25,834 nt of DNA from a virus. A program made the position numbers and the translations under genes. Location of the stretch: IMG/VR virus record IMGVR_UViG_3300032235_000379, positions 1-25,834 of that record. One strand, written 5' to 3'. Shown here one piece after another: positions 15,232 to 25,483 of the stretch (its first letter is position 1; the number at the start of each line of letters is the position of its first letter). Under the pieces are notes generated by a model. The model did not search any database and was not told the DNA's origin. It was given only the letters and a program-made list of their open reading frames with translations.

Positions 15232-15296
15232 GACCTTAACACTTTGATAACGATTTTGTATCCGTTGTATCCGTATTATCAGTTTACTAACGGATA

Positions 15297-15319
15297 CAAA
15301 AAGTTAGTGACCACTAACT
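15297..15319 (-). terminator. Rho-independent terminator of the early genes
   Basis: Minus strand AGTTAGTG-GT-CACTAACT (15302-15319), which would form at least a 6-bp stem with a 6-base loop, is followed by TTTTTG. It lies downstream of the VRR-NUC gene and upstream of terminase. The T run is part of one CGGATACA repeat copy. Confidence 0.7.
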
Positions 15320-15405
15320 CCGAGCGCGAATTCCCACGCGGGTGCGGAAGAACCCAGAATTCTTTGTATCCGTTGTATATACCGTTCTGTCGTCTAGCGA
15401 TATTT

Positions 15406-15425
15406 CTGTCGCAGCCTTGCGACAG
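15406..15425. repeat. Perfect 8-bp hairpin
   Basis: CTGTCGCA (15406-15413) and TGCGACAG (15418-15425) are exact complements around a 4-base loop. No T run follows on either strand, so it is not an obvious terminator. It may be a protein site or a structured RNA element within the repeat region. Confidence 0.55.
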
Positions 15426-15488
15426 GACAATACCCCCATGCGCGTGTGTAACAGCGGATACAGATCGCCTTCTTTTCGACTGGGAGAG

Positions 15489-15512
15489 GGTGTTCCATGA
15501 GGTGTTCCATGA
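15489..15512. repeat. 12-bp tandem duplication
   Basis: GGTGTTCCATGA occurs twice in direct tandem (15489-15500 and 15501-15512), close to the outer inverted iteron pair. Function unknown. Confidence 0.6.
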
Positions 15513-15614
15513 GGGGGTTCTGAACCGGATACAACGGATACAGACCCTGTTGAAGCTTTGCTGCGCCGCACCTAGACCTACGATACGGACTCCCCGGGCG
15601 GGAGTGATTGCATT

Positions 15615-17014: not shown

Positions 17015-17043
17015 ATTATACCACCCGTGGCATAGGCTGTCAA
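17015..17043 (-). promoter_or_regulatory. Early promoter P1
   Basis: Minus strand TTGACA (17038-17043), 17 bp, TATAAT (17015-17020), both perfect. Upstream is AAATAC, as in P3 and P4. The -35 box contains the TGA stop of the upstream small membrane protein gene. It drives the genes from 16950 leftward. Confidence 0.9.
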
Positions 17044-17378: not shown

Positions 17379-17636
17379 CTATTGACGTTGGGCGGGGATT
17401 CGCTCGAGGATCGCGGCGGCAATACGGGTCAGATCCATTTCGTCGGCCCACTCGGACACCATCCGGGCGCACGCTTCACGCTCCATAACCACCGCCGTCT
17501 TGGACGCTTCGATCGCCATCGCCATGATTTCGGCTTTGGCGATCACCAGCGCCTCGTCGAATTCCTTCTGCGTAAATAGTGTGGACTGGGTACCCTTGGC
17601 GAGGAACGCTTTTTGGAAGTCCGACATTTCGCTCAT
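17379..17636 (-). CDS. Small helical phage protein
   Basis: 85 residues, nearly all helical. The part ASKTAVVMEREACARMVSEW resembles the common phage motif of the type 'a...EReaCA...' with one conserved Cys, found in many small early proteins of unknown role. The ATG at 17636 overlaps the stop of the winged-helix gene and has an AGGAG site nine bases upstream. Function unknown. Confidence 0.7.
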   Translation of the reverse strand: MSEMSDFQKAFLAKGTQSTLFTQKEFDEALVIAKAEIMAMAIEASKTAVVMEREACARMVSEWADEMDLTRIAAAILERIPAQRQ

Positions 17637-18079
17637 CCGAATATCTCCTGTAGTCTTGCGTAGATCCTGCGAGCCTCGCCGATCGGCAGCGCATCGACGT
17701 CAATCTGGCCGAGGATGGGTACCGGCGCGGGTTTAGGCTCCTCGTATTTTACCACAGCGACCGGTGCGGGATCGATTTTGACGTTTGCTACCGATTTAGG
17801 TAGCGGCAGCAGCTCGTACTCGGACAGGGCGACCGCATACTCGAGCAGCGATTTACGGCCAGACCCCCGATAAGGGCGGTGCAGGACTGGTTTCGACTTG
17901 ATCATACCGCGCGTAGTCATGTCGCGCAGTTCCGTCTGGATCCACTCGACTCGCTCATTCAGCGCGGTCGCGATTTCGCGTGACGTCTTGTTCGGATGGT
18001 CGCGCAGCCAGTTGAAGATCCGGCGCTTGATCGGTACTTTGATGCCTACGTCATTCAATGCTTTTTTGATGATGTTCAT
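17633..18079 (-). CDS. Winged-helix DNA-binding protein, putative regulator
   Basis: 148 residues. About residues 15-62 read as a winged helix-turn-helix: RRIFNWLRDHPNKTSREIAT, ALNERVEWIQTELRDMTTRG, MIKSKP, with a wing in HRPYRGSGRKSLLEYAV. The middle is Pro, Val and Lys rich (EPKPAPVPILG) and the C-terminal helix ALPIGEARRIYARLQEIFG may serve contacts. This makes it the best candidate in the window for a transcriptional regulator, for instance of the repeated promoters. It has a good GAGAGG RBS and overlaps genes on both sides by four bases. The regulatory target is unknown. Confidence 0.75.
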   Translation of the reverse strand: MNIIKKALNDVGIKVPIKRRIFNWLRDHPNKTSREIATALNERVEWIQTELRDMTTRGMIKSKPVLHRPYRGSGRKSLLEYAVALSEYELLPLPKSVANVKIDPAPVAVVKYEEPKPAPVPILGQIDVDALPIGEARRIYARLQEIFG

Positions 18080-19655: not shown

Positions 19656-19684
19656 ATTATACCACGGGTAAAATACCCTGTCAA
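19656..19684 (-). promoter_or_regulatory. Early promoter P2 with palindromic spacer
   Basis: Minus strand TTGACA (19679-19684), 17 bp, TATAAT (19656-19661). The spacer contains the perfect inverted repeat GGGTA-TTT-TACCC (19666-19678). A 7-bp inverted repeat with arms 19631-19637 and 19648-19654 follows directly, around the start point. The -35 box contains the TGA stop of the upstream gene. Confidence 0.9.
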
Positions 19685-20193: not shown

Positions 20194-20223
20194 ATTATAC
20201 TACGGGTGTGATACCCTTGTCAA
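20194..20223 (-). promoter_or_regulatory. Early promoter P3
   Basis: Minus strand TTGACA (20218-20223), 18 bp, TATAAT (20194-20199). It lies wholly within or at the 3' end of the upstream gene; the TAA stop of that gene is part of the -10 box. A 16-base near-palindrome ACGGTAATTTTGCCGT (20171-20186) follows as the leader hairpin. Confidence 0.9.
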
Positions 20224-21033: not shown

Positions 21034-21062
21034 ATTATATCACCGGTACGATAGTCTGTCAA
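21034..21062 (-). promoter_or_regulatory. Early promoter P4
   Basis: Minus strand TTGACA (21057-21062), 17 bp, TATAAT (21034-21039). The leader hairpin CGGGGACTTCCCG lies at 21013-21025. It starts four bases after the stop of the DUF6378-like gene. Confidence 0.9.
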
Positions 21063-21066
21063 GTAT

Positions 21067-21438
21067 TTACCACGAATCCCGGTCAGGTGTTGTCGAGCTG
21101 CTAACACTCGACCGTCCGAGATCCTCGACCGATATCTCCACCTCCTCGAACGCCGCCCGGATTTCGCGGGACACCTCGTCCTGCTTCAGGCGATCGACCA
21201 CCAACTGGGCGTACCCGATTATGTCTACCCACGAATCCATATATTTGGGGTCACCATTGAGAATCCGAGCGATTTTGTGCTGGATCATCTCGAGCGATTC
21301 TTGCATGTACGGATATAACTCGGGCCACGACCGGCCTTTGTGCATCACCTTCTTAAAATGCACCGATAATTCGGCGTGGTAGCGAAAATCGCCGTACTTT
21401 TCTGCACGGTCACTTAGCGTCTTTTTGATGTCCGTCAT
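21067..21438 (-). CDS. DUF6378-like phage protein
   Basis: 123 residues. The core TLSDRAEKYGDFRYHAELSV, then ESLEMIQHKIARILNGDPKY and DSWVDIIGYAQLVVDRL, is the pattern of a helical phage family I know as DUF6378 ('R...YG.f......m..K.aRi..G....D...DiagYa.L'). Its fold resembles small all-alpha nucleotide-related proteins, including MazG relatives, but no activity is established to my knowledge. The C-terminal 35 residues are variable and Ser rich. It lies right behind the Z-base genes and overlaps the zinc-ribbon gene by 29 bases, so it may belong to the same nucleotide-handling block. Confidence 0.78.
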   Translation of the reverse strand: MTDIKKTLSDRAEKYGDFRYHAELSVHFKKVMHKGRSWPELYPYMQESLEMIQHKIARILNGDPKYMDSWVDIIGYAQLVVDRLKQDEVSREIRAAFEEVEISVEDLGRSSVSSSTTPDRDSW

Positions 21439-21571
21439 GAGTCTTCTCTCTAGTAGTGAATCGGAATTGGCACTTCGGTGATTTGCACTCGCGCCGACGG
21501 CGTACGGTGTTATCGGCGTTGTTGTAAGTCATCAGTACATGAGTGGGCTTGCCGCATTTAATACATTTCAT
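21410..21571 (-). CDS. NrdR-like zinc-ribbon mini-protein
   Basis: 53 residues: MKCIKCGKPTHVLMTYNNAD, then NTVRRRRECKSPKCQFRFTT and a polar end. Cys3, Cys6, Cys29 and Cys34 form a zinc ribbon. The VRRRRxC...RFTT stretch is that of the N-terminal DNA-binding ribbon of NrdR, the repressor of ribonucleotide reductase genes. The second cysteine pair is CxxxxC instead of the usual CxxC, and the ATP-cone domain of NrdR is absent. The ATG at 21571 shares four bases with the datZ stop (ATGA). A role in reading NrdR boxes or in dNTP control is attractive but inferred; short ribbons of this kind also occur in other phages. Confidence 0.75.
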   Translation of the reverse strand: MKCIKCGKPTHVLMTYNNADNTVRRRRECKSPKCQFRFTTREKTHDGHQKDAK

Positions 21572-22104
21572 AGGCCCATCTCCTTTCGAACCTCGAACAT
21601 CCCTGACCGAATGTTCAGGTCGAGATGCTCCTTCTCGTATTTATCGATCATGTCGTACATGGTGTCGTACAGACCGGTGAGCACTTCCTTGGCATGGATG
21701 CCCACACCGTGATCTTTTAAGAACCAGATCGCTTCCAGGATATCCGCGAATTTCACGATTACGCCGTATACGGTGCCTTCCGCACGACGACACATTCCAC
21801 CATACTCCTTCAGGAACTGCTCTTCAGCGGCAAGCATCTTCGCACCATTCGCCTCGAGTGCACGCTTGAATGGGGTCGGGATGTCGCCGGTATAGATCTC
21901 GACAATGTCGTGCATCAAAGCCCAAGACATCAGATCCAGTTGATCCGAGTGATGAAACCGCCCGTTCCATCCGATCGCCGCCGCGATGCGAACTGCAATG
22001 CCCGCGACGTTGAACGAGTGTTCAGCGATCGTCTGGGTGCGCGACGTATTCACTATCGTCCACCGCTTGGTGTACGACGCACGCAGCCATTCACTCGCTT
22101 TCAT
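21568..22104 (-). CDS. datZ: DatZ, HD-domain dATP triphosphohydrolase
   Basis: 178 residues from ATG at 22104, which overlaps the mazZ stop (ATGA) and has GAGG at good distance; an in-frame start at 22143 is less likely. The HD fold residues are His29 (TIAEHSFNVAG), His65-Asp66 with Glu69 (ALMHDIVEIYTGDIPTP) and Asp121 (VIVKFADILEA). This is the YfbR-type HD family, and the start region SYTKRWTIVNTSRTQTIAEH matches phage DatZ proteins. DatZ of Z-genome phages strips the triphosphate from dATP so that no adenine reaches the polymerase. Position next to mazZ and purZ makes this reading much more likely than a general 5'-nucleotidase. Confidence 0.87.
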   Translation of the reverse strand: MKASEWLRASYTKRWTIVNTSRTQTIAEHSFNVAGIAVRIAAAIGWNGRFHHSDQLDLMSWALMHDIVEIYTGDIPTPFKRALEANGAKMLAAEEQFLKEYGGMCRRAEGTVYGVIVKFADILEAIWFLKDHGVGIHAKEVLTGLYDTMYDMIDKYEKEHLDLNIRSGMFEVRKEMGL

Positions 22105-22595
22105 ACATGCCTCATGATTCGCGTGTTCGGATCCACTCGCCATGTTCGCTGCTCGTTGATGTCCATCTTGTCATTCACCGCTTTCTGTATGTCGATGTCA
22201 TTCATGCGTGCGACATCCAGCAGCAGGATCATAATGTCCCCGAATTCAGGAGCACTCTTAGGGTCGCGTGCGTACTCTCCAAGCTCCTCATATAATTTAA
22301 GCAGGATATCGGCAGTAGTCCGATTGGGAAAGTTCTGATCAGCCCAATCGACGATACGATCCTGCAATTGCTTGATGTCGGCACCAACTCTTTTATGATA
22401 GGCCGAAACGGCACGTAGTACAAAATCGGCATTGATATCACACGATCCGGTGACACCCTTATAGAGGTCACGCGTCTCGAAATCTGCAACCGGTAGCCCG
22501 TTGGCGTCCAAGAGTAGCGCGGGATTGCCTTCACTCTTCCTCCACGGTAGTGGGTTCATCTCGTCGGTATAACCGAGCGCTTCAAAAATCGGCAT
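22101..22595 (-). CDS. mazZ: MazZ-like MazG-fold dGTP pyrophosphohydrolase with N-terminal extra domain
   Basis: 164 residues from ATG at 22595, chosen because AGGGAGA lies just upstream; the open frame goes on to 22652 without RBS. The C-terminal half is a MazG-type helical domain: LYEELGEYAR (Glu103, Glu104, Glu107), EFGDIMILL (Glu117, Asp120), and KMDINEQRTW with Lys143, Asn147 and Arg150, the usual metal and substrate sites. The N-terminal 75 residues (NPLPWRKSEGNPALLLDANG, NADFVLRAVSAYHK) match a separate phage domain of unknown role. In Z phages MazZ converts dGTP to dGMP, the PurZ substrate. It overlaps purZ by 14 bases. Confidence 0.83.
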   Translation of the reverse strand: MPIFEALGYTDEMNPLPWRKSEGNPALLLDANGLPVADFETRDLYKGVTGSCDINADFVLRAVSAYHKRVGADIKQLQDRIVDWADQNFPNRTTADILLKLYEELGEYARDPKSAPEFGDIMILLLDVARMNDIDIQKAVNDKMDINEQRTWRVDPNTRIMRHV

Positions 22596-23604
22596 ATTCA
22601 ATCTCCCTAATGTCTGCATCATCCGGCCCGAAGCACAGGTAATCTGGTCCAAAGTTCGATAAATTCATCTGACGGATGATGTTGGTCAGCGTATCCTCGC
22701 CACAGTAATCCGCGAATGTGAGTACGACTTTCGTCGAGAGTCCCGCACAGTGTAGCATCGCGTGCTTGTACTGCGCGTCCGAGAATTCGAAGATGCGACG
22801 CGGCAGCTTGGTCACTGTAGTCAGTTCAGGCTCTAGTCCCAGATCGCCCCAAGATATCTCTTTCTGCCCGGGGTATGCAGGTCCAGACGTACCATCACGA
22901 TTATTCACTCGGATCGGGAACGTGCGTACGACCATCCACACCGTGATCGCTGCCGCCCATGTGAACGGTAATCCGCAATCCGCCGCGATCTGCCACGGTG
23001 TTACGTCACGCGATGTACAATATGGCCAATCACCATGGTACATTGACAGGCCGAACCCCTGTGCACCTTCGACCAGCAGATGGCGCGACTCGTTCAGGAT
23101 GCGGTCGTATTCGAACCGATCGACCACGAACTGCTCGAGCGGATGACCCTTGAAACCCAACCGGGCGACGGCTTTCGAATCCGGGTCACGCATGATGCGA
23201 TCCACCATCGCAGCCCCCACGCCTTTGGTGGTCGAGCCGATTTTGGTCATGCCGAGTGATTTCTCACGCTCAGAATGCTCATCCGTCACCACCGCTGCGT
23301 GTTCGTGGATCACCAACCGCTGGCCCTCGACCATGTATTTGTCGATCTCTCGTTGCAGGGTACCCGCGTGAATGAGCGATCCCGGGCCGAGCATGACCGT
23401 GTTCACCGACGGGCCAGACACTCCGACCGGCAGCTGCTGCACCATCATCTTCAGACCCCGGGCGCGGTCATTATACGTGTGACCCGCTTGCGTGCCATAT
23501 GAACACACCACGGTGTCGTATGCATACCGTTTCGCGAGCCAGCCGGACACGCCGCCTTTGCCACACGATCCCCACATGCCATCCATAGTCATATCGATTC
23601 TCAT
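22582..23604 (-). CDS. purZ: PurZ, phage adenylosuccinate synthetase-like enzyme for 2-aminoadenine
   Basis: 340 residues, about 90 shorter than bacterial PurA. The first loop is WGSCGKGG: Ser13 stands where PurA has catalytic Asp13. The catalytic His is kept (His42 in QAGHT), and GSTTKGVGAAMVDR (123-136), VEGAQGF (178-184) and YCTSRDVTPWQIAADCG (195-211) follow PurA regions. The guanine-binding TKLD motif reads TKLP (265-268), so GTP specificity is probably lost. PurZ joins aspartate to dGMP; host PurB then gives dZMP, which host kinases turn into dZTP. The RBS GAGGAG fits ATG at 23604. The gene has its own possible promoter. Confidence 0.94.
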   Translation of the reverse strand: MRIDMTMDGMWGSCGKGGVSGWLAKRYAYDTVVCSYGTQAGHTYNDRARGLKMMVQQLPVGVSGPSVNTVMLGPGSLIHAGTLQREIDKYMVEGQRLVIHEHAAVVTDEHSEREKSLGMTKIGSTTKGVGAAMVDRIMRDPDSKAVARLGFKGHPLEQFVVDRFEYDRILNESRHLLVEGAQGFGLSMYHGDWPYCTSRDVTPWQIAADCGLPFTWAAAITVWMVVRTFPIRVNNRDGTSGPAYPGQKEISWGDLGLEPELTTVTKLPRRIFEFSDAQYKHAMLHCAGLSTKVVLTFADYCGEDTLTNIIRQMNLSNFGPDYLCFGPDDADIREIEYADF

Positions 23605-23662: not shown

Positions 23663-25483
23663 TCACCCTTTCGCCTCGTACCAGTTACCGCCGATACCCC
23701 AGTCGCAGGTGATCGGCACCCTGAACTTCATCTCGCAATCGACGCCATCGAACGTGGTGTAGATCTTGGCGATCGCGTCGGGATTCGCGTCCTTCTCGAG
23801 CGATATACCGACTTCGTCGTGCACGGTCAGCAGCAATCGTCCCGCATCACGCTCGGTCAGATATCGGTCGATCTCAATGAGCTTCACCTTCATCGCGTCA
23901 GCGCTGGTGCCTTGGTAAATCAGACCCGACGCCTTGTGCGTGAACTGCCCGCCCGGGAACCGGATGTGACGGCCCATCATGGTCATCACGTGACCCCGCT
24001 GCCGAGCGATCGCCGACGCCTTTTGCTGCATATTGCGCATTCCAGGATTCGCCGCGTGGTACTTCTCGAAGATCGCAAGCGCCTCGGGGCCGGGTTTGAC
24101 AAACACTCGCCCATCGTCCATCGTCTCCTCGGCACAAGGTAGCCCGATCTCTTGCGCGAGACGCCCGGCACCCATGTTGAATGCAAGACCCAGATTGATC
24201 GCTTTCGATGACGGCCCACCCGCATACTGCGCGTTCCGGGGAATGCCGGTCATATCGGATACTAGCTGGTGGAAGTCGAGGTTCGGGTTGTCGTGGTACG
24301 CCTTGATGATGGCCGGTACTTGGCCGTAATGGTTAGCCACGCGAAACTCGAACTGCGACCAATCCATTCCAAGCCATCTTGCGCCCTCATCTGGAAGGAA
24401 AATAGGACGTACCAAGGACTTGATCTCTTGGTCACGACTAGGGATCTGCTGGAGCGCTGGATTGGTAACTGAGAGTCTGCCGGTACCAGTTCCGGCCTCC
24501 GCATCATTTTTCGTCTGGTTATAGTTACAGTGAATGACGCCTTCATTGTGATGTCCTAAGATGTGGCCGGATAAGAATGTATCGCGGGTTTTCAGCATTT
24601 TGCGCAGGTCGAGTATCATCTTCGCCGCCGGGTGCTTCATGCGGCGCAGACAGTCTGCGTTTATCGATGCCTTACCCCCATCAGTCTTATCCGCCTTCGT
24701 GCCGTCATTCAAATACCATTCACCATCCGATCCTAACTTCGGCTCGAATAGCTTCGTGATCGATCCGGAAGGGTTCGGGTTGACCTCGAATCCCGCGAGG
24801 GTATTCAAGGCCCGGTGGTCCTGCTCGATGCGAACGGAGAGCCTCTCGACCGCCTCCTCGGCCCGATCGACGTCCACCCGCACGCCGCCCTCTTCCATCC
24901 GAATTATAACAGGCATGAGCCTCCGCTCCAGATCGTGCACCTTGGCGATCTCGGTCATGCGGGGTTCCTGCCACTGGAACAGCTTCATCGTCGCCAGTGC
25001 ATCCTGCTTCGCATATTTTGCCACCATTTCTGCCGGTGCGCGGTGGATATTGGGCATTTGGGCGTTCCGAGTGGCCCTACCACCGAACAACCCGGCCATC
25101 TCCTCGTATATCTCGGTCTCCTTGCGGGTGTTGGCGTACTTGCGAGCCAAGAAGTCGAGTTCATAGGTGGGTTCATGCTCGTTGATCAGCGCCGCCCGGA
25201 TCATGGTGCAGTCGATTCGATCCTCAGGCAGGATGACCCCCGCCTCGCGCAGAAAATGGTAATCGAACTTCAGATTATGTCCGACCCACTTCGTGCGCGG
25301 ATTCGCATCGATCAGGTCATTTAACCAGTCGATAAATCGAGGATCCGTTCGAACATCGAAATACCATGTATCTTCGGTCTCCGTACACAGCGAGACCCCG
25401 AAAATGCGGTCTTTCCACCACTTTAAACCAGTGGTCTCCGTATCGATCACCAACACCTTCGGATTCTCTATGCGCGGATACAT
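23663..25483 (-). CDS. dpoZ: Family A DNA polymerase with 3'-5' exonuclease, DpoZ type
   Basis: 606 residues. The proofreading domain has Exo I VIDTETTG (Asp14, Glu16), Exo II HNLKFDYHF (Asp73) and Exo III YAKQD (Tyr156, Asp160). The polymerase domain has TGTGRLS (330-337), motif A MDWSQFEFR (Asp373, Glu378), motif B SSKAINLGLAFNMG (Lys426), QGTSADAMK (523-531) and motif C VHDE (His554-Glu556). There is no 5'-3' exonuclease domain. In the O helix of motif B, positions matching E. coli Pol I Arg754 and Phe762 appear as Gly422 and Leu430. In phages with PurZ, a polymerase of this kind (DpoZ) prefers dZTP over dATP; the location next to purZ supports that. No RBS is visible; it starts five bases after the upstream stop. 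Confidence 0.9.
   Translation of the reverse strand: MYPRIENPKVLVIDTETTGLKWWKDRIFGVSLCTETEDTWYFDVRTDPRFIDWLNDLIDANPRTKWVGHNLKFDYHFLREAGVILPEDRIDCTMIRAALINEHEPTYELDFLARKYANTRKETEIYEEMAGLFGGRATRNAQMPNIHRAPAEMVAKYAKQDALATMKLFQWQEPRMTEIAKVHDLERRLMPVIIRMEEGGVRVDVDRAEEAVERLSVRIEQDHRALNTLAGFEVNPNPSGSITKLFEPKLGSDGEWYLNDGTKADKTDGGKASINADCLRRMKHPAAKMILDLRKMLKTRDTFLSGHILGHHNEGVIHCNYNQTKNDAEAGTGTGRLSVTNPALQQIPSRDQEIKSLVRPIFLPDEGARWLGMDWSQFEFRVANHYGQVPAIIKAYHDNPNLDFHQLVSDMTGIPRNAQYAGGPSSKAINLGLAFNMGAGRLAQEIGLPCAEETMDDGRVFVKPGPEALAIFEKYHAANPGMRNMQQKASAIARQRGHVMTMMGRHIRFPGGQFTHKASGLIYQGTSADAMKVKLIEIDRYLTERDAGRLLLTVHDEVGISLEKDANPDAIAKIYTTFDGVDCEMKFRVPITCDWGIGGNWYEAKG

Follow-up and report, generated by a model that had tools for sequence, protein, structure and literature searches.

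An NrdR-type zinc ribbon without an ATP-cone follows datZ in one lineage of Z phages and may regulate palindromic early promoters

The window analysed here, a 25,834-nt stretch of viral DNA (IMG/VR record IMGVR_UViG_3300032235_000379), carries on its minus strand, in the order of transcription, genes for a PolA-type polymerase, PurZ, a MazZ-like protein and DatZ, followed by a small zinc ribbon gene and a gene for a DUF6378 protein (Table 1). Judged by family matches, purZ, datZ, mazZ and a DpoZ-type polymerase lie together here as a Z-genome cluster, and the closest cultured relatives of the polymerase are Z-phage polymerases. In the Z clusters of phiVC8, S-2L, PMBT28 and SH-Ab 15497, purZ likewise lies beside datZ-type and MazG-type genes. 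The DUF6378 protein is conserved in all eight genomes compared. Elsewhere in the window (15257-15542), in the interval that separates a nuclease gene from that of the small terminase, a perfect 17-nt inverted repeat (TGTATCCGTTGTATCCG) has its arms 252 nt apart and is accompanied by further direct copies, possibly marking a replication or packaging site.

Table 1. Positions of the Z-cluster genes, the ribbon gene and the palindromic promoters in the window
Feature	Position	Strand	Basis or detail
PolA-type DNA polymerase	23663..25483	-	PF00476 174.5 bits; best tblastn matches are Z phages, 47-49% identity
purZ, amino-adenylosuccinate synthetase family	22582..23604	-	NF038379 PurZ 284.7 bits, slightly below the cut-off of 300; phrog_1211 219 bits
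mazZ-like dATP/dGTP pyrophosphohydrolase	22101..22652	-	PF04447 35.9 bits; phrog_801
datZ, HD-domain dATP triphosphohydrolase family	21568..22143	-	phrog_7076 102 bits; PF12917 58 bits
NrdR-type zinc ribbon gene without ATP-cone	21410..21571	-	PF22811 full-length match, AlphaFold model, conservation in 85 contigs
DUF6378 protein gene, overlapping the ribbon gene at its 3' end	21067..21438	-	PF19905 30.7 bits
Sigma-70 type promoter TTGACA-N17-TATAAT	21034..21062	-	Imperfect palindrome TATcgtACCGGTgatATA at 21036-21053
Promoter of the palindromic sigma-70 class, N18 spacer	20194..20223	-	Palindrome about 20196-20213
Promoter of the palindromic sigma-70 class	19656..19684	-	Palindrome about 19658-19675
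Promoter of the palindromic sigma-70 class	17015..17043	-	Palindrome about 17017-17034

The ribbon ORF opens with an ATG preceded by the ribosome-binding-like sequence AGGAG and encodes a product of 53 residues (MKCIKCGKPTHVLMTYNNADNTVRRRRECKSPKCQFRFTTREKTHDGHQKDAK). Its start codon overlaps the datZ stop codon by 4 bp in a common ATGA. The product matches the Pfam family Zn_ribbon_NrdR (PF22811) over the whole domain (39.4 bits against a cut-off of 27.2; 42 of 42 positions), and the same cut-off is passed by all seven related contigs tested. The NCBIfam model for NrdR (TIGR00244) is matched at 22.3 bits against a cut-off of 124.65 and over only the first 44 of its 147 positions, indicating that the C-terminal ATP-cone with which NrdR senses ATP and dATP is absent from the 53-residue protein. 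These results uphold a sequence-only reading of this DNA, which had described an NrdR-type ribbon that lacks the sensor domain and is coupled to datZ. The second cysteine pair of the window protein is CX4C, versus CX2C in NrdR; among the 85 Z-type ribbons collected below, CX2C-X22-C is retained in every one, and the second pair is CX2C in 65 and CX4C in 20. The cysteine pairs are thus separated by 22 residues, compared with 24 in NrdR. An AlphaFold model of the window ribbon (mean pLDDT of 82, about 90 within the ribbon) gave no significant match with Foldseek alone, and a second-look fold aligner returned five NrdR entries as the top matches (Z of 5.4-6.5; rmsd of 2.0 to 2.8 over 50-51 residues), with the next fold at a Z of 4.8. 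Given the Foldseek result and the middling Z values, the sequence match outweighs the fold evidence in assigning the protein to the NrdR-type ribbons.

When IMG/VR was scanned with PurZ, DatZ and the polymerase as well as with the ribbon and two ribbon alignments, 85 different contigs with a Z-type ribbon emerged. Selection on the ribbon core is strong (dN/dS of 0.01-0.10 when four relatives are compared with the window, with values for datZ of 0.05-0.13 for two of these four), and since the 85 contigs encode the ribbon as 53 distinct proteins, the ORF is evidently a genuine gene and not a chance reading frame. In all 83 contigs that reach datZ this gene lies directly upstream of the ribbon, the remaining two ending before it. 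The exact ATGA overlap is found in 70 contigs and a GTG start at the same spot in five further ones (L060-L064), while more than 40 bp separate the two genes in six (L074-L076, L104, L128, L139). The ribbon is present in every polymerase relative whose contig extends past datZ (that of L170 ends inside purZ), and a terminase-based search for Z-less close relatives revealed none, as every locus reaching the region has both ribbon and datZ. No ribbon relatives were confirmed in bacterial genomes. Genes are gained or lost on either side of the datZ-ribbon pair, which itself stays together and keeps its order across two terminase types.

The clades that share this pair have diverged in other parts of the operon. 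Between the window and L056-L078, PurZ falls to about 43% identity, far below the polymerase (about 73%) and MazZ (62%), a gap suggesting an exchange of purZ in one of the clades. In most of the distant relatives the ribbon gene is followed by a gene for a histone-deacetylase-type protein (PF00850, 103.7 bits; among others L068:6227-7057 and L071:6255-7124) and then by one for a protein of 394-440 residues without a family match, both placed between the ribbon and DUF6378 and both absent from the window's own clade. This 2.2-kb insert was considered as a ribonucleotide reductase (RNR) and rejected on identification of these two proteins. Another relative (G009; L086:1433-1759) encodes, upstream of the helicase, a product containing an Acb2/Tad1 hairpin (PF24729, 56.8 bits), a domain named after phage anti-defence proteins.

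All carriers of the Z-type ribbon belong to a single phage lineage. Unlike the window, 11 records of cultured Z phages from other groups, including phiVC8, S-2L, PMBT28, ZP6 and SH-Ab 15497, contain no match to PF22811 above cut-off anywhere in the record. The gp24 protein of phiVC8 (52 residues), which occupies the same place behind datZ, was rejected as a ribbon because it is without the ribbon cysteines. The sequence-only reading had proposed looking for the small ORF next to datZ or purZ in other Z phages; the adjacency stands for every testable contig of this one lineage and does not extend to the 11 other phages.

Z-less relatives of the window were located through the capsid protein, which is 88% identical in phage ctpbd312 and 77% identical in Caulobacter phage RW. 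Neither phage has Z genes, a ribbon or the palindromic promoters described below in the stretches searched. In genomes G002 and G003 the terminase and portal are different (about 44-45%), yet the Z genes and the ribbon are retained. Taken together, the absence of both from phages with a related capsid and their retention in G002 and G003 indicate that it is the Z and early module, and not the virion module, that the ribbon accompanies. ATP-cone-free solo ribbons of the NrdR type are encoded in Z-less phages as well, away from any Z genes, lying between nuclease and terminase genes in L142-L147 and occurring further in EBPR siphovirus 2, Synechococcus phage Ssp-JY39, ctLwi270 and Geobacillus phage GBSV1. 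Such ribbons in other settings (L142-L147; L188-L193), together with the confinement of the Z-type ribbon to one lineage and its absence from other Z lineages, would fit an ordinary conserved gene of that lineage whose adjacency to datZ is functionally meaningless. We regard this as rather improbable, given that the datZ-ribbon order survives the turnover of flanking genes, the divergence of PurZ and the change of terminase, and that the ribbon is missing from the Z-less phages whose capsid protein is related.

The residues through which NrdR binds DNA and pairs allow the ribbon to be compared with its better known relative. In S. coelicolor NrdR, the backbone of the DNA is contacted by R12, R26-29 and R37, and sequence specificity seems to come from D15 and R17 (PMC9110341); in E. 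coli NrdR the ribbons pair via a β edge, with salt bridges involving R27, R29 and E42 (PMC12176259). The Z-type ribbon has in common with the NrdR structures (E. coli 9fxk/9fvr and S. coelicolor 7p37) the zinc ribbon domain, the phosphate-binding RRRR stretch, R37 and the R27/R29/E42 set. Ribbon residues R25, R26, R27, R37 and E42, which correspond to NrdR R27, R28, R29, R37 and E42, show no variation across 21 diverse aligned members, so that the pairing residues are fully conserved and the backbone-contacting residues are invariant or, at the first position of the stretch, R/K. In contrast, D15 and R17 are replaced in 85 of 85 Z-type ribbons. The equivalent of R17 is always Tyr, with an Asn a constant number of residues further on, forming a conserved T-Y-x-N at the place of the D-S-R of NrdR. 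Judged by homology, backbone binding and pairing thus look intact, and with both specificity residues exchanged the Z-type ribbon should still form pairs and contact DNA, without reading NrdR boxes as NrdR does.

A small basic ribbon could also aid replication or the Z enzymes without being a transcription factor, for example by binding DatZ or by binding DNA non-specifically. Its fixed position directly behind datZ, with coupled translation, and its arginine-rich surface, which in NrdR mainly contacts phosphate, are consistent with such a role. This nevertheless seems improbable to us, as the exchanged yet conserved T-Y-x-N at base-reading positions suggests sequence reading, and the wider datZ-ribbon gap in six contigs indicates that immediate coupling is not obligatory.

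The sequence-only reading had further suggested that the ribbon could compete at NrdR boxes, which would link Z synthesis with RNR control. In this scheme the ribbon would pair with host NrdR or occupy its boxes, derepressing the nrd operons and sustaining dGTP. The retained pairing residues make mixed pairing with host NrdR possible. No large-chain RNR gene (PF02867) was found in 11 long contigs, and on this ground the phage probably relies on host RNR. In pneumococcus, phage infection raises the host NrdR regulon (PMC6755750); this class of effect therefore exists, with no sign of the Z-type ribbon causing it. Against these points, the residues for box recognition are replaced throughout the Z-type ribbons, and NrdR boxes (≤3 mismatches) are absent from five of six phage genomes, the sixth having two weak sites; competition at the boxes is not borne out. 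Nor is a special link to RNR, as 11 other Z phages make do without the ribbon. In addition, NrdR requires dATP for DNA binding (PMC9110341), and DatZ, going by its enzyme family, should destroy dATP, so that an anti-NrdR device looks redundant and is hard to justify. We therefore consider an anti-NrdR function quite unlikely. The DSR motif is retained in the solo ribbons of EBPR siphovirus 2, Ssp-JY39 and ctLwi270. In EBPR siphovirus 2 (L188:2501-2815) the ribbon is unannotated and lies near a 104-residue gene annotated as RNR alpha; if any phage protein acts at NrdR boxes, this ribbon would be a better candidate than the window's.

A different set of sites is found in the ribbon phages themselves. 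These phages carry consensus sigma-70 promoters in which spacer and -10 together contain TATnnCACnnGTGnTATAAT, and an imperfect palindrome, TATnnCACnnGTGnnATA, covers this part. All four promoters of this class in the window read into the block of small genes that follows the Z operon. Among 49 non-redundant promoters of ribbon phages the left half of the palindrome accompanies the right half in 31 of 35 and is present in three of the 14 without the right half. As the counted promoters are related in sequence, p-values of the half-site association overstate certainty. In Z phages without the ribbon, the left half is found in two of 12 promoters. The right side corresponds in part to the extended -10 element, while the left TAT corresponds to no known promoter element. 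The left half is itself imperfect (TAT in 10, TGT in 8 and TAC in 6 of the 49). The distance from palindrome to -10 is constant with a spacer of either 17 or 18 nt, and the palindrome thus behaves as one unit. In L069 (6190-6240) and relatives the next promoter, palindrome included, falls within the 3'-terminal codons of the ribbon ORF, such that the C-terminal tail of the protein is partly written by promoter sequence.

A palindrome of this kind points to a DNA-binding protein that acts as a pair. Among the non-enzyme proteins conserved in all eight genomes, a DNA-binding fold was recognised in the ribbon alone. Two further proteins, orf155 and one of 150-168 residues, are conserved in eight of eight and orf94 in seven of eight, with folds that are not recognised, and the binder could be another conserved small protein of this kind instead of the ribbon. 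A 148-residue protein (17633-18079) with a possible winged-helix start (HTH_65 at 12.9 bits only) was rejected as the binder, having no relative in the other genomes compared.

These promoters also bear on a resemblance of the ribbon to the Ogr/Delta late activators of P2-type phages (PF04606), which are likewise small phage ribbons without a sensor. A protein of that type would touch host RNA polymerase and activate phage late promoters, a job that suits a small sensorless phage ribbon. Ogr_Delta is the second of the Pfam matches, and the CX2C-X22-CX4C spacing of the window protein is that of an Ogr-type Serratia phage protein (L191). However, the PF04606 match reaches only 14.7 bits against a family cut-off of 26.3, the arginine stretch and RFTT ending are NrdR-like, and most relatives have CX2C in place of CX4C. 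The palindromic promoters, moreover, have consensus -35 and -10 elements, so an activator should be unnecessary. We judge an Ogr/Delta-like role unlikely.

Our preferred reading, held tentatively and at a likelihood somewhat short of even, is that the paired ribbon regulates the phage's own early promoters via TATnnCACnnGTGnnATA, the effect probably being repression. The ribbon would be a phage-owned DNA-binding regulator without nucleotide sensing, produced alongside DatZ, through coupled translation, from the final part of the Z operon. Presumably holding zinc, two ribbons would probably pair through the β edge used by NrdR, place their arginines against the DNA backbone and recognise the palindrome through T-Y-x-N. 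The likely target covers the spacer and -10 in the promoters that follow the Z operon, where binding would most simply repress, and the downstream genes would be shut off once Z synthesis is under way. Consistent with this regulator, ctpbd312 and RW lack the ribbon and the palindromic promoters alike in the stretches searched. Against it, no promoter of this kind turns up in the ribbon-bearing G002 and G003 at ≤1 mismatch, and looser dyads are few there; because all carriers form one lineage, the promoter class and the ribbon also have their ancestry in common.

The Z-phage literature that we found centres on the enzymes that make and use dZTP, transcription control from Z-DNA seems little studied, and our literature search found no paper joining NrdR, zinc ribbon and phage. 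With a fixed gene behind datZ and a candidate operator, the question of how transcription from Z-DNA is controlled could be reduced to one small protein and a short piece of DNA. The ribbon would be a case in which the DNA-binding domain of a repressor has been reused, with its sensor dropped and its reading residues exchanged. That the T-Y-x-N ribbon is adapted to Z-containing DNA, telling it from host A-DNA at a palindrome with conserved adenines, strikes us as very doubtful; if true, the phage promoter switch would depend on the base substitution itself.
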